Source: Atribacter laminatus | GTDB lineage: Bacteria; Atribacterota; Atribacteria; Atribacterales; Atribacteraceae | Assembly (NCBI RefSeq): GCF_015775515.1 | Contig: NZ_CP065383.1 | Location: 2,914,001 to 2,978,000 of the forward strand | Direction: 5' to 3' | DNA length: 64,000 nucleotides | Shown here: positions 18,640 through 26,078 of the stretch, piece after piece | Layout of the letters: each line of letters starts with the position of its first letter | Numbering within the stretch: position 1 is the stretch's first letter | Notes under the pieces: model-generated | What the model saw: the letters and a program-made list of their open reading frames with translations, nothing else | Database searches by the model: none | What the model was told of the DNA's origin: nothing | Made by a program: the position numbers and the translations under genes

Positions 18640-19210
18640 ATCAAGCCCCAACAAAGAATTTTAAAAAAATTCTATCATCCTGAACGATGTTTCCCCGCTT
18701 GAGGGTCTCATTTGTCTCAGTAGGAGTCATACTGAGCCCTTGCCTATTAAGGGTGTGAGGATCTCATCCACTCAATCCGTCATTGCGAGACCTCGTTTTT
18801 TGAGGTCGTGGCAATCTCTTGAGCTTTCTCAGTCATCCTGAGCGGTGCTTTCCCGCGTGAGGATCTCATCTTTTTAAGTTTTTGTTTTTCTTAATTATTT
18901 TTAATAAATATAAAAGGTGGGATTCTCACATCACACAATACGTTCCTCAGAATGAAGAATTGGCTAAATGAGATTGCCACGTCGCACTGGACGCTCCTCG
19001 CAATGACGAGAATTAGAGTGGTTTGATAAAACAAACCACCATTAAAATGCTTTTTAAAAGTGTAGGGGCGACAATTTATTGCGCCCAATTAATGTAGCGA
19101 CATGCCATGGCATGTCGTGTTTTGGGTTTTTGCTTCATTAATAATTAAAAAGATGGGATTCTCACGCCGGCTGGCAAAAAACGTCACTCTTCTCAGAATG
19201 ACCCAGAAAA
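18640..19210. repeat. intergenic repeat cluster 4
   Basis: This stretch has no gene. ATCCT/AGGAT-type hairpins are at about 18676-18712, 18722-18768 and 18830-18868. ATTGC/GCAAT hairpins are at about 18777-18816 (ACCTC/GAGGT inner arm) and 18969-19008. ATTCT/AGAAT hairpins are at about 18908-18955 and 19155-19202. A TGGTTTG/CAAACCA hairpin is at about 19018-19040, an 'aggggcgacaatttattgcgccc' type module at about 19062-19086, and the 20-bp palindrome at 19098-19117. Confidence 0.85.
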
Positions 19211-19326
19211 TATCTCCCCCTCGCCCCCTCGGTCTTTTTCTCTTCGCTGTACTTTCCTTAATAAAATGGTAGAATGGACTATAAAAAGTCAGCACAGGTT
19301 TTTTTCTTGCGAAAGGAGGGAAAAAG

Positions 19327-19686
19327 GTGGATACGACCAAAATTCAGCATTATAAAAAGGCATTACTGAGCATCCAAACAAGGATTAATCAACTATTAAC
19401 CAAAGAACAGAGCTTTCTTCGGGAATTCAATCCCTTAACCGAATCCCTCGATGAAGGCGATTTTAGCCAAGCAACTGTAGATCGAGAGATGGAGCTTCTC
19501 TCCCGTGATGCTCTTTTACAAATTTCCAAGTTAGTTGAATCAGCTTTAAAAAAAGTTGAAAGCGGAACCTATGGAATTTGCGAGAGATGTCAGCAGGAAA
19601 TTCCTGAAGGCCGTTTAAAAGCCTTACCCTATACTCCTTACTGCGTCAGCTGCCAATCAATCATCGAAAAAAAGTACGAAAAATAA
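19327..19686 (+). CDS. TraR/DksA family C4-type zinc-finger protein
   Basis: The 119-residue protein has an N-terminal helical hairpin, then LVESALKKVESGTYGICERC and the zinc site CX2C...CX2C (CERC at about 88-91, CVSC at about 109-112). DksA relatives bind RNA polymerase through the secondary channel; many short versions of this type occur outside Proteobacteria with unknown targets (YteA-like). The GTG start at 19327 is chosen because AAAGGAGGG lies about 8 bases upstream. The gene is monocistronic and convergent with the SAM decarboxylase gene. Confidence 0.88.
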   Translation: MDTTKIQHYKKALLSIQTRINQLLTKEQSFLREFNPLTESLDEGDFSQATVDREMELLSRDALLQISKLVESALKKVESGTYGICERCQQEIPEGRLKALPYTPYCVSCQSIIEKKYEK

Positions 19687-19687
19687 A

Positions 19688-19732
19688 AAACCGAGGATCA
19701 ATCAAACGACCCCCGGTCTTTATATTTTTATC
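19688..19732. terminator. terminator between convergent genes
   Basis: An imperfect hairpin with arms ACCGAGG and CCCCGGT (19691-19697 with 19714-19720) is followed on the plus strand by a T-rich stretch (CTTTATATTTTTAT). It lies between two convergent genes, so it likely ends the zinc-finger transcript and possibly acts in both directions. Confidence 0.5.
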
Positions 19733-19737
19733 GCCAG

Positions 19738-20187
19738 TCAAGTACTTGCCATTCTCTCCAAGTTCTCTAGACGATCCTCATACACCATGGAAATACTTTC
19801 ACCTAATTCCTTAGGATATTCAACTCCTCGATCTAAAATTTGCCGCTGAAAATCTGAGAGATGAAAATACTCAATCAAATACTGAGTTGCCTCTTCTGCA
19901 TCAAAAGGCTTGCAGGAAAAAACATCAACACTCAGATAACCCTTCGCAGGGAAAGTATGGATACTAATATGACTTTCAGCGATTATGACAATACCTGAAA
20001 GACCGCTTTCTTGGGAAGTATCTCCCTGATAACGGAATACATAAGGCGGCATAATCTTCGTCATATGCATCCGATCTGGATACTCGTCCAAAAATGCCCG
20101 GACGCGATCCAGATCCTGGAGTAACGACGTGTCGCTGGTAAAACCATCCAACACAAGGTGAGTACCGGCTTCAAAGACCTTTTTCAT
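19738..20187 (-). CDS. speH: S-adenosylmethionine decarboxylase proenzyme
   Basis: This is the SpeH-type (short) enzyme that makes decarboxylated SAM for spermidine synthesis. The self-cleavage site is IIAESHISIHTFP: the serine of ESHIS becomes the pyruvoyl group (about residue 72), followed by GYLSVDVFSC with the conserved cysteine. I start at 20187 (MKKVFEAGTHLVLDGF) because AAAGGGGGG lies 8 bases upstream; the longer frame to 20208 would put that site inside the gene. No spermidine synthase is nearby. A structured RNA and a consensus promoter lie upstream. Confidence 0.95.
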   Translation of the reverse strand: MKKVFEAGTHLVLDGFTSDTSLLQDLDRVRAFLDEYPDRMHMTKIMPPYVFRYQGDTSQESGLSGIVIIAESHISIHTFPAKGYLSVDVFSCKPFDAEEATQYLIEYFHLSDFQRQILDRGVEYPKELGESISMVYEDRLENLERMAST

Positions 20188-20330
20188 TGGGTATCCCCCC
20201 TTTCTCATATTCGCGAGAATAAAATTGTCCCCCGCAAACCATCATTCCGACGGAGACAAAAAGAAATAGTCACAGTTTGTATGCCAAACCATGACTATTT
20301 CTCTATTCGATTCTCAAGATAAAATAATGA

Positions 20331-20513
20331 CTGATGATTTTTTCTCATCAGGTGCTCCCACCCAGACTTTTTTGTCCAGAAAAACAAAATGGGTGCACTC
20401 ACCCTCGGGGAAGGGGCCCTTCCCTCTGCGAGTGTTTTGGAGGGACTCCCATTAGGACATCAGATGACGTCCGTCTTTTTTGCCCTCAATTCCACCCCCA
20501 TAAAAAATCATAA
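20331..20513 (-). ncRNA. candidate structured RNA of about 183 nt (6S-like, or speH leader)
   Basis: The predicted transcript starts near 20513 under a perfect promoter. Its 5' end (complement of 20502-20511, AUGAUUUUUU) is perfectly complementary to the segment at 20333-20342 (AAAAAAUCAU), so a molecule of about 183 nt would close end to end. Internal pairings are strong: GGGAAGG/CCUUCCC around a 3-nt loop, enclosed by CACUCGC/GUGAGUG (7 bp), enclosed in turn by AAUGGG/CCCAUU with a 13-nt bulge on the 5' side, plus a side hairpin GGACGUC/GAUGUCC. An alternative terminal hairpin CUGAUGA/UCAUCAG could act as a weak terminator. Length, closed ends and an asymmetric central bulge resemble 6S RNA; a long regulatory leader of speH is the alternative. 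Confidence 0.5.
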
Positions 20514-20520
20514 CATTGCA

Positions 20521-20548
20521 ATTATATACCCTCCCCCCCTGGTGTCAA
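20521..20548 (-). promoter_or_regulatory. consensus sigma-A promoter upstream of the structured RNA and speH
   Basis: On the minus strand TTGACA (20543-20548) and TATAAT (20521-20526) are separated by 16 bases, so both hexamers are perfect. The start point would be near 20513, and the first gene downstream is speH at 20187, leaving a 325-base untranslated stretch. Confidence 0.85.
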
Positions 20549-20599
20549 TAGGTTGTGGAAAAAGTTTTGAGCAACTCATTAGATGGTAGAAGATGGGAA

Positions 20600-21060
20600 G
20601 CATTGAGGATTTTAAAATAATCGACTTTCTCATTTTTCTATTCAGTAAACCCACGGGCTTAATCGAGCAAATCCCTACAGAGGAATTTTAACGTAGCGAC
20701 GTGCCATGGCATGTCGAATTTAGATTTTCACCCTCATCCTTACCTTCTCCCATCAAGGGAGAAAAAACACAAAAATGTCATTGCGAGACCTCGTTTTTTG
20801 AGGTCGTGGCAATCTCTTGAGTCATCTTTATCATTCCTGAACCCTCTTTCCTTTTCTTCTTTTCTTCCTCTCTCCCCCTCAGCATTTGAGGGCGTGAGGA
20901 TCTCATCAACCTAATTCGTCATTACGAGACCTCGTTTATTGAGGTCGTGGCAATCTCTTGAGTCTTCTCAGTCATCCTAAGCGGTGCTTTATCGCGTGAG
21001 GATCTCATCTTTTCATTATTTTATATTATTTCTTCTTCCTTTGGACAAAGGGTGAAGAAG
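20600..21060. repeat. intergenic repeat cluster 5
   Basis: This gene-free stretch carries the 20-bp palindrome with one mismatch at 20697-20716 and a CCTTCTCCC/GGGAGAA module (about 20740-20765). ATTGC/GCAAT hairpins with ACCTC/GAGGT inner arms are at 20777-20817 and about 20919-20957. A half copy and a full copy of the ATCCT/AGGAT type lie at about 20885-20908 and 20968-21009. Confidence 0.8.
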
Positions 21061-21143
21061 AAAACCAATCATATCTTTTCCTGATACTCGAACCCACTGT
21101 GATTTTAAATATTTTTCGTTTCTTTTTTATTGCTATATATTAA

Positions 21144-22662
21144 TTAACTCAACTTTCGCACTAAAATAAATGCTGAAAAACCTTGATTTTAAAGGGTTTT
21201 TAATGAAAACACCCCTCCTTTCTGGTAGAATTGACTTAAGGAAAAAAACCAATCACCACAAAGAGAGAGGTGTCTTCATGACTATCCTACCAGAAAATTT
21301 GAAAAATGAAAGGACCTTGTTACCCATGTTTTCCTCCTTTATGAAGGAGTTTAAAGTGAACCAACTGTTTCGAAAATGCCATATGAACAAAAAGAAAGGG
21401 TTCCCAGTCAAAGACGTCTTTCAGATGATCTTTCTCCTAGTCTTTACTCAGAAAAACGTTGCTGGTCTTCTCCAATCTCGACATCCCCTTTTCCAAGGAA
21501 AGAAAGACACTCTTTACCGTTTCCTCCACAAGACCAGTGGGAGCTGGCGAAAATTGCTCTTTCTTTTGAGTACCAAAGTAGTCTCTGAAGCGCTCCTTCC
21601 TTTTACCAGTTTGAAACGCTACACCTGGGTGGTGGATGATTCCCCCTATGAACGGCCTCGGAGCTTGAAAGTTGAAGGGCTCTCTCGATTCTATGATCAC
21701 GCCCAAGGACGGTTCAGTCGGGGTTTCAGAATGCTCACTTTAGGACTCACCGATGGTGCTACATTCATTCCCTTTGCTTTTTCATTGTTAAGTTCTCACC
21801 AAAAAGAAAACCAGCTCTGTCCCATGGATGCCTCCATTGATGGGCGGAGCAAAAGAGCTCACCTTCGGAAAGAATCCCAAGAAAAAGCTCCAGATGTCTT
21901 CTTCAACCTCCTGGATGGAGCCTTGAAACACTGTCCTTTGGTCTCAACTATTCTCTTTGATAGTTGGTTCAGTTTTCCAGCCCTCATCCGCAAATGTGCT
22001 CTTCGCGGATTATCAGTGGTGTGCATGCTCAAAAACACCCCAAAAATTTACTATTCTTTTGGTGGAAAAGTTCTTTCTCTTTCCTCTCTTTTCACCAGAA
22101 TTCAGAAAAGACCACACGGCAATATCATTGGATCGGGTGTCGTGAATCTCAATCTCACTGGGAAACCACTTTTAGCTCGGATTGTCTTTGTCCGAAGTGA
22201 AAAACAAAAATCTCAATGGTTGGCACTGCTTTCAACTGATCTGTCTCTTTCTGAAGACGAGATCGTCACCCTCTATGGGAAACGCTGGGATATCGAGGTT
22301 TTCTTCAAGATGGTGAAATCGGTCTTGAAACTCACTCGGGAATTTCAGGTTCGATCCTATGATGCTCTGGTATCCCATACCAGTATCGTCTTTATCCGCT
22401 ATATCATGCTCGCGGTTATTGCCCGGAGAAACACCGATCCCCGAACCTTTGGCGAGCTTTTCTATGCCTGCTATGATGAAATTCAGGATATCACTCTTAT
22501 GGAAGCACTCACTCTTCTTCTTGAGCTCCTGAAGACGACCATCAAACAGATTCTTGTCCTTTCAGAAGAAAAAGTCAAAGAGCTACTCATCTATTTTGTA
22601 AATAGTCTTCCAGCATGGTTGAGAGAAAAAGTGCTATTATTGAACTGCGAAAGTTGAGTTAA
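21144..22662 (+). mobile_element. intact IS4-type insertion sequence
   Basis: The element is about 1519 bp, bounded by perfect 17-bp inverted repeats (21144-21160, TTAACTCAACTTTCGCA, and its complement at 22646-22662). It carries a single complete transposase gene. The right repeat overlaps the transposase stop codon. A 3-bp TAA on each side may be the target duplication, but the A/T-rich context makes this ambiguous. A broken relative lies at about 45376-46268. Confidence 0.9.
21278..22657 (+). CDS. IS4-family DDE transposase
   Basis: A 459-residue transposase starts from the ATG at 21278 (MTILPENLKNERTLLPMF), chosen because AGAGAGAGG lies just upstream; an in-frame ATG at 21170 lies within the left end of the element. 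Catalytic blocks visible are WVVDDSPYERPR (first Asp region), TILFDSWFSFPALIRK (second Asp) and GKRWDIEVFFKMVKSVLKL (Glu in the IS4 Y-(2)-R-(3)-E-(6)-K-like signature). Intact frame and intact ends suggest a potentially active copy. Confidence 0.92.
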   Translation: MTILPENLKNERTLLPMFSSFMKEFKVNQLFRKCHMNKKKGFPVKDVFQMIFLLVFTQKNVAGLLQSRHPLFQGKKDTLYRFLHKTSGSWRKLLFLLSTKVVSEALLPFTSLKRYTWVVDDSPYERPRSLKVEGLSRFYDHAQGRFSRGFRMLTLGLTDGATFIPFAFSLLSSHQKENQLCPMDASIDGRSKRAHLRKESQEKAPDVFFNLLDGALKHCPLVSTILFDSWFSFPALIRKCALRGLSVVCMLKNTPKIYYSFGGKVLSLSSLFTRIQKRPHGNIIGSGVVNLNLTGKPLLARIVFVRSEKQKSQWLALLSTDLSLSEDEIVTLYGKRWDIEVFFKMVKSVLKLTREFQVRSYDALVSHTSIVFIRYIMLAVIARRNTDPRTFGELFYACYDEIQDITLMEALTLLLELLKTTIKQILVLSEEKVKELLIYFVNSLPAWLREKVLLLNCES

Positions 22663-23473: not shown

Positions 23474-23737
23474 TCATTCATCATATACCTCATCCCTTTT
23501 CCCAACCTTTAATACCAATATAAGAAGATGATTTTCCTGAATTGTATAAATAACACGAAACTTTCCTATACGGTATCGAAAGAATCCCTTGAAATTGCCC
23601 TTGAGTGGCATACTAAGTTTTATTGGATCTCGAGCTAAATATTTTTCAACTTTACTTATGATTGATAATGCAATTTTTCGGTCAATTTTTTTTAAATCCT
23701 GAACCGCATCTTTATGCCACAGAATCTGGTAATTCAT
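23474..23737 (-). CDS. RelE/ParE-family toxin
   Basis: The 87-residue protein has the RelE fold pattern: YQILWHKDAVQDLKKIDR at the N-terminus, LKGNFKGFFRYRIGKFRVIY in the core (basic residues that in RelE position mRNA), and the typical ending VLKVGKRDEVY. RelE toxins cleave mRNA on the ribosome. It overlaps the antitoxin stop by 4 bases, in the usual antitoxin-first order. Confidence 0.92.
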   Translation of the reverse strand: MNYQILWHKDAVQDLKKIDRKIALSIISKVEKYLARDPIKLSMPLKGNFKGFFRYRIGKFRVIYTIQENHLLILVLKVGKRDEVYDE

Positions 23738-23943
23738 GATTCAATTTCTTTTTTAACTTCTTCGGTTGTATAGTAGTCACTTCCTGGTTGGGAAAACCTT
23801 TCAAGCACAACATAATAATCCTCAATATCTTCGAGATAACGAGTCAAAGCTTCCTTAACATAAAAGCTCTTGGATCGTTTTGTTGATTGAGCTAATATAT
23901 CTAACTTTTTTTCAAGATCTTTAGGTAAACGAATAGATATCAT
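23734..23943 (-). CDS. ribbon-helix-helix antitoxin of the RelE pair
   Basis: The 69-residue protein begins with a ribbon-helix-helix domain (MISIRLPKDLEKKLDILAQ, then RSKSFYVKEALTRYLEDIED) that would bind its own promoter. The acidic, disordered tail (YYTTEEVKKEIES) is typical of the toxin-neutralising segment. The order and the 4-base overlap with the toxin mark a type II toxin-antitoxin operon. Confidence 0.92.
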   Translation of the reverse strand: MISIRLPKDLEKKLDILAQSTKRSKSFYVKEALTRYLEDIEDYYVVLERFSQPGSDYYTTEEVKKEIES

Positions 23944-25634: not shown

Positions 25635-25859
25635 CTACGATGTTCTGGCATTTAAGAATTTATCAACAGATATACCACTCTTTCTAATTAATCCCCGAAG
25701 CAAACCCGGTGCTAACTCTTTATGGTTTGGAATTGATAGGGTTGGTCTTTCTTCGTGATATAAAATCATATGACTTCCAGTTTGATGATCCAGAATGTAA
25801 CCAAATTTTTGGAAGATTTTTACTGCTTCCTTACCCGAAATACGAGGGAGAAATCCCAT
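25635..25859 (-). CDS. hicA: HicA-family toxin (mRNA interferase)
   Basis: The 74-residue protein has the HicA double-stranded RNA-binding-like fold: LPRISGKEAVKIFQKFGYIL, then QTGSHMILYHE, whose histidine in GSH is the conserved catalytic residue, and SIPNHKELAPGLLRGLIRKSGIS. HicA cleaves mRNA and tmRNA. It is paired with hicB, stop-to-start with no gap, here with the antitoxin gene first. Confidence 0.95.
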   Translation of the reverse strand: MGFLPRISGKEAVKIFQKFGYILDHQTGSHMILYHEERPTLSIPNHKELAPGLLRGLIRKSGISVDKFLNARTS

Positions 25860-26078
25860 TTAGATAGTAACCTCTCCTAAGAACACCTCGTTTTCCTCGA
25901 AATAATTCAATCTCCCATGCCTTTTTTCCACTTCCAGCCATCCCCTAATGGCATCCTTTATATTGCTCAGGGCTTCATCAAAAGTTTTTCCCTGACTCAT
26001 GCATCCGATGAGTTCAGGAACATCCACTACATATCCTTCATATTCTGGATCGTAGGTGATTACAACCTTAAATTTCAT
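25860..26078 (-). CDS. hicB: HicB-family antitoxin
   Basis: The 72-residue protein matches the HicB partial RNase H-like domain: YDPEYEGYVVDVPELIGCMS and GKTFDEALSNIKDAIRGWLE. A C-terminal DNA-binding domain is absent, as in short HicB forms. A ribosome binding site (AAGGAAGGAG) precedes the ATG. It neutralises HicA encoded immediately downstream. Confidence 0.95.
   Translation of the reverse strand: MKFKVVITYDPEYEGYVVDVPELIGCMSQGKTFDEALSNIKDAIRGWLEVEKRHGRLNYFEENEVFLGEVTI

Follow-up and report, generated by a model that had tools for sequence, protein, structure and literature searches.

A conserved leader upstream of speH in an order of Atribacterota, with a short open reading frame ending at an intrinsic terminator, is a candidate translation-dependent attenuator

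We analysed the region upstream of speH, the S-adenosylmethionine (SAM) decarboxylase gene, in a window of Atribacter laminatus DNA (the whole stretch of 64,000 nucleotides), and we consider it rather probable that this region encodes a cis-acting leader working as a translation-dependent transcription attenuator of speH, in which a folded domain most likely gates helix P5 in response to a metabolite. On the minus strand, the elements follow each other in the order promoter, folded domain, open reading frame (ORF) of 17 codons, intrinsic terminator and speH (Table 1). The speH product matched PF02675 at 95 bits and TIGR03330 above its cut-off, and a spermidine synthase homologue is encoded in the same genome (C1:2242998).

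The sequence-only reading that preceded this work named no strand, and it overlooked the two parts on which most of the evidence rests, the leader ORF and the terminator. It had proposed a perfect TTGACA-16-TATAAT promoter upstream of speH, and this was confirmed as a 12/12 consensus match, located on the minus strand like speH itself and unique within 19200-21200. TTGACA and the 16-nt spacing were invariant in every collected leader; 17 of the 19 had TATAAT as their -10 element, the other two, G006 and G007, having TATACT. Judging from the promoter, transcription would start at approximately 20514-20512 and head to lower coordinates, into speH.

Table 1. Features of the speH leader, with positions in the window.
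Feature	Position	Strand	Basis or remark
Promoter TTGACA-N16-TATAAT	20548..20521	minus	12/12 consensus match; -35 at 20548-20543, 16-nt spacer, -10 at 20526-20521
Predicted transcript 5' end and conserved GGGGGUGGAA (P1 5' strand GGGUG)	20488..20514	minus	start predicted from promoter
Closing helix 5' strand (partner 20334-20343)	20502..20511	minus	restricted to close relatives
P2 (GAGGG / CCCUC) with variable hairpin P3 (20455-20472)	20435..20487	minus	comparison of leaders
P1 3' strand CACUC and linker	20426..20434	minus	comparison of leaders
Hairpin P4 GGGAA-loop-UUCCC; loop GGGCCCC complementary to GAGGGC	20408..20424	minus	comparison of leaders
P5 (GUGC-A-CCC / GGG-A-GCAC) around variable hairpin P6	20352..20398	minus	comparison of leaders
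P5 3' strand UGGGAGCAC, Shine-Dalgarno sequence of leader ORF	20352-20360	minus	comparison of leaders
Leader ORF MRKNHQSLFYLENRIEK-stop, 17 codons	20295..20348	minus	start position kept in all leaders
Intrinsic terminator T1, 19-bp stem and U-run	20257..20303	minus	overlaps leader ORF end
speH ribosome-binding site AAAGGGGGGAU	20193..20203	minus	sequence
speH, S-adenosylmethionine decarboxylase	19738..20187	minus	start codon 20187

For comparison, we gathered the speH leaders of 19 genomes belonging to four families of one Atribacterota order; in addition, one named record was identical to one of these leaders, and one contig started inside the leader. DNA and speH searches assigned the window to Atribacterota, its named near relatives being 'Candidatus Atribacteria' assemblies. 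Comparison of the 19 leaders showed the same chain of parts in all of them, namely the promoter, the folded domain, a Shine-Dalgarno sequence within a helix, the ORF, a terminator at a constant place and speH, to which the leader was exclusively linked. A covariance model of the leader (R1) recovered 17 of the 19 at 81-152 bits, one per genome and always before speH, with the next-best matches reaching only about 20 bits, and no further matches were obtained in 386 genomes, including 336 from outside the phylum. The two leaders missed by R1 belong to family f4 (G012 and G014); their identification rests on position, P5, ORF and terminator, and they keep the promoter as well, their P1-P4 part not being confidently alignable. 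AdoMet decarboxylases elsewhere in the phylum were all distant (28-31% identity) and had no leader, and the AdoMet decarboxylase (speD/speH) loci of Thermodesulfobacteria, Chloroflexota and others were likewise without such a leader.

The folded domain spans approximately 20499-20352 on the minus strand. In the hand alignment, its consensus comprises P1 (GGGUG/CACYC) with a conserved internal loop (GAA.. / ..AA), P2 (GAGGG(C)/(G)UCCCUC) followed by the variable hairpin P3, P4 (GGGAA/UUCCC), and P5 (GUGC(A)CCCC/GGGG-A-GCAC) with the variable hairpin P6. In a MAFFT alignment the helices were 88-100% paired, with 96% of cells paired overall, and P5, which holds the Shine-Dalgarno strand of the ORF, was paired in 100% of cells. 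The changes seen were mainly one-sided, G-C to G-U and U-A to U-G when read on the minus strand, which assigns the RNA to that strand, because the same changes on the other strand would give A-C mismatches. Two-sided, compensatory changes in the core helices of this alignment were few and not above shuffles, as the core strands barely vary and the alignment of P2 is wrong in some rows; the power of covariation is also limited because the RNA is restricted to one order. Alongside the MAFFT covariation, a strand-level test was carried out on the hand alignment. The G-rich P2 5' strand GAGGGC has two possible C-rich partners, its P2 partner and the P4 loop, and both change along with it (GGGC/GCCC, GGGU/ACCC and GGAGC/GCUCC), with permutation p values of 0.008 and 0.009 for ten representatives in a test that ignores relatedness. 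Two alternative partners for one strand suggest, at the level of sequence comparison, a switch.

With regard to folding energy, the 184-nt stretch was more stable than 200 of 200 dinucleotide shuffles (z -3.78), and the core without the closing helix gave a z of about -2.8. The leaders of G008, G007 and G010 folded little better than their shuffles; since several single sequences lie near shuffle level, the structure rests on comparison and not on energy.

The leader ORF starts directly behind the P5 strand GGGGAGCAC, its Shine-Dalgarno sequence, at the same place in every leader, and its length varies between 8 and 18 codons, usually 13-18. The start codon is AUG in 12 genomes, GUG in 2 (the ORF of G010 being taken from its GUG) and AUU in 5. 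AUU, a rare initiation codon, stands at the leader start in genera g7-g9 (L020, L025, L026, L027 and L028), where it is preceded by a strong Shine-Dalgarno sequence and, in g7, directly followed by UUG; it is possibly a deliberately weak start. Relatives encode peptides such as MKRVIGLRFWFLRI (G019), MKKFIVFGFWCLRM (G006), VERIIKAGFWVLRI (G011) and LKRLRQAIKLVLRI (family f4), and a C-terminal FWxLR[I/M]-stop is common to families f1, f2 and f3 despite differing codons, with LRI in f4. The in-frame BLOSUM sum was 102, versus -4 and 14 out of frame, a value reached by 0 of 20000 draws in each of two null models, and differences at codon positions 1/2/3 were 7/2/8, 5/3/8 and 6/4/9 in three pairs. 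By these comparisons, the leader ORF is under protein-level selection across families. The FWxLR motif was absent from genera g3, g4, g5, g8 and g9, in which the folded RNA is still kept, so that no single stalling peptide can account for all leaders. Moreover, the ORF of the window's species is in a different frame from the conserved C-terminus, while the sister species G002 has MRKIISLFMILRIE; peptide identity is therefore not essential everywhere, and it is the placement of the stop that is kept. Indeed, all ten genera have the stop within -9 to +13 nt of the terminator foot, where 2.0 genera were expected, and ten was reached in 0 of 20000 shuffles.

A terminator is present between the leader domain and speH in all collected leaders, and the T1 stem-loop has a predicted energy of -24.4 kcal/mol. 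Its 5' arm (20303-20284; L013-L032) carries the sequence RURGUCAYGG, conserved in four families beyond what the stem would need; in G011 this sequence lies outside the strongest stem. Several genera have a second terminator-like hairpin, AUCUAUCC..GGAUAGAU with a U-run, further downstream. Among the genera compared, no conserved RNA antiterminator against the terminator 5' arm was found, with the sole exception of g5, in which the 5' end of the ORF is able to pair with the arm.

The surroundings of the locus were also inspected. An IS4-family transposase gene (21170-22657, plus strand; NF049925, 498 bits) lies upstream of the leader promoter and divergent from it, and the interval between the two holds two copies of a palindromic repeat of about 53 bp (ATTGCGAGACCTCGTTTTTTGAGGTCGTGGCAATCTC...), at 20777-20830 and 20925-20968. 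More copies occur across the window, and at least 43 in the genome; the REP/MITE-like repeat core had 19 matches in the window versus 0.12 expected. On the other side, a gene for a DksA/TraR-like zinc-finger protein (19327-19686, plus strand), with scores below curated cut-offs, converges on speH. Furthermore, pairs of small adjacent ORFs at 23474-23943 and 25635-26078 (both minus strand) are toxin-antitoxin-like by their translations alone, the likenesses being RelE/ParE-like with a small DNA-binding partner, and HicA/HicB-like.

As the stop codon lies at the terminator foot and the Shine-Dalgarno sequence inside a helix, ribosome-controlled attenuation is the simplest reading, and the lack of a conserved RNA antiterminator makes the ribosome the likeliest antiterminator. 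We infer this ribosome-controlled antitermination, together with its signal and the direction of control, as follows. The strong promoter would give a leader RNA with a short ORF, the ribosome-binding site of which is folded into P5 and the stop codon of which lies at the terminator foot. If the ORF were left untranslated, the terminator would form and transcription would end about 250 nt from its start; a ribosome translating the ORF and dwelling near the stop would instead cover the terminator 5' arm, and the polymerase would read into speH. Control may enter at initiation, where P5 would open and the upstream domain might serve as an aptamer, or through an arrest peptide at the stop codon. 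Most likely, the upstream domain, with its one strand and two partners, would decide whether P5 opens, in response to a metabolite from SAM or polyamine metabolism. speH would then be switched off when spermidine is ample or SAM scarce, in what is probably feedback control of spermidine synthesis; spermidine or SAM is named as the signal because of the identity of the gene, speH, which is the sole basis for it. Tentatively, and with clearly less than even confidence, the leader may be regarded as a new riboswitch class of one Atribacterota order, in which a SAM/polyamine-pathway metabolite, as ligand, would hide the ribosome-binding site of the leader ORF and the ribosome could not block the terminator. 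Counting against attenuation are the conservation of the terminator 5' arm beyond the need of the stem, which it leaves unexplained, as well as the off-frame peptide in the window, the five genera lacking FWxLR, the AUU starts, the scarcity of compensatory changes in the core helices and the near-shuffle folding of some representatives.

Other readings account for part of these features. In a classical riboswitch, P1-P4 would bind spermidine, SAM, dcSAM or MTA, RNA-RNA pairing would control the terminator, and the ORF would be incidental. Such a device is consistent with the conserved unpaired GGUGGAA and AA in the P1/P2 internal loop, with the strand that has two covarying partners, with an intrinsic terminator ahead of a biosynthetic gene and with the pairing between ORF and terminator arm in g5; we nonetheless consider it unlikely, as no antiterminator pairing is conserved, the ORF is conserved at the protein level with a fixed stop placement, and no known aptamer was matched. 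Nascent-peptide arrest, which we regard as somewhat less likely again, would have the FWxLR[I/M] peptide sense a small molecule in the tunnel and stall the ribosome at the stop, with the RNA tuning initiation. Such stalling is exemplified by TnaC (tryptophan) and SpeFL (ornithine). The C-terminal motif kept in f1, f2 and f3 (LRI in f4) despite different codons, and the stop at the terminator foot in every genus, would fit; however, in about half of the genera, the window's own species included, the motif is absent and the folded RNA is kept.

That the leader is mainly an abundant trans-acting small RNA ending at T1, with speH transcribed by leakage only, appears improbable. With a strong consensus promoter and one or sometimes two strong terminators, an abundant RNA of about 250 nt could indeed arise, but the element always stands before speH and never elsewhere, and its ORF stop is tied to the terminator. 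The proposal of the sequence-only reading that a closed RNA of about 183 nt may be 6S RNA was prompted by its size and closed shape. In its favour are the size of the closed portion and ends able to pair in this genus, and the ten-base pairing itself is exact, AUGAUUUUUU (20511..20502) being complementary to AAAAAAUCAU (20343..20334). The RNA is not a closed unit of that length: the predicted transcript continues through the 17-codon ORF to the terminator at 20303-20257, which would give a natural short form of about 250-255 nt. As a conserved element, the 10-bp closing helix was rejected, since it stands out only in the window (G000) and the sister species G002, and pairing in other genera was no better than in shuffles. 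The 6S identity was rejected too, and we give it practically no chance: the genome has its RF00013 match at another place (C1:2858079-2858235; 49.8 bits, above cut-off), 20 of the order's 25 genomes carry a single such match each, and RF00013 had no match at E<=10 in 20180-20620. By the refuting condition that the sequence-only reading had set, stems lacking conservation in relatives or 6S RNA clearly encoded at another locus, 6S and the closing helix fell, while the inner stems stood. Its alternative suggestion, a regulatory leader of the SAM decarboxylase gene, is well supported by a single occurrence per genome, before speH and with a terminator between. Its impression that no known riboswitch consensus is obvious also held, as an Rfam search assigned no family to the leader: a comparison with all 4227 Rfam families (cmscan, E up to 10) returned junk-level matches far below gathering scores, SAM/SAH riboswitch families had no match in the window (E<=10) or in the loci of nine relatives (E<=1), and the speH leader loci of these nine gave no relevant Rfam match.

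Firmly established polyamine-responsive RNA switches of bacteria are few, among them a rare SAM-I variant (PMC10853860) and, by way of Rho, the Salmonella speF leader. The former, the spermidine riboswitch, precedes speD, speE and other genes, which it switches off through termination (Salvail et al. 2023, PMC10853860). The speH leader resembles it as the leader of a polyamine gene (speD being among those of the riboswitch), with an intrinsic terminator before the gene and, as proposed here, an off switch. The spermidine riboswitch is a four-stem SAM-I variant found in Gram-positive bacteria, and its model includes no leader ORF, whereas the speH leader has no Rfam match, a different fold and a conserved ORF. 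In the Salmonella speF leader, translation of orf34 is needed to avoid Rho termination (Ben-Zvi et al. 2019, PMC6386406). Both leaders place a small ORF before a polyamine-synthesis gene, and translation prevents premature termination in speF and, as we propose, would do so in speH; yet speF, an ornithine decarboxylase gene, has a 34-codon ORF near the 5' end and Rho-dependent termination, while speH, encoding AdoMet decarboxylase, has 8-18 codons 3' of the folded domain and an intrinsic terminator, with no sequence relation seen. A structured leader combined with an upstream ORF (uORF) is likewise known from metE and ppe2 of M. tuberculosis, which have B12 riboswitches and translated uORFs, ppe2 expression requiring uORF translation (Kipkorir et al. 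2024, PMC11260477). There, the aptamers bind cobalamin, the coupling proposed for ppe2 is mainly termination-reinitiation, and the RNA is unrelated to the speH leader. With TnaC-type arrest peptides (PMC8429421), the leader shares a short, C-terminally conserved peptide encoded before a point where termination is decided; the putative arrest peptide here is another one, and its motif is missing in half of the genera. To 6S RNA (RF00013) it is similar in approximate size and in ends able to pair in this genus, but it matches no 6S model and has an ORF and a terminator. A literature search on polyamine riboswitches and speD leaders returned the SAM-I-variant paper only, with most subscription journals outside its coverage. 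Altogether, the parts are of known kinds, and the RNA family and its combination with these parts before an AdoMet decarboxylase gene appear undescribed. The leader would thus share working principles with the spermidine riboswitch, speF and B12-uORF systems while being related in sequence to none of them in the comparisons made; if the proposed attenuation is true, it would represent an independent solution in a little-studied phylum, built from an apparently unrelated RNA, an ORF and an intrinsic terminator, in a short and uniform layout that suits direct testing.
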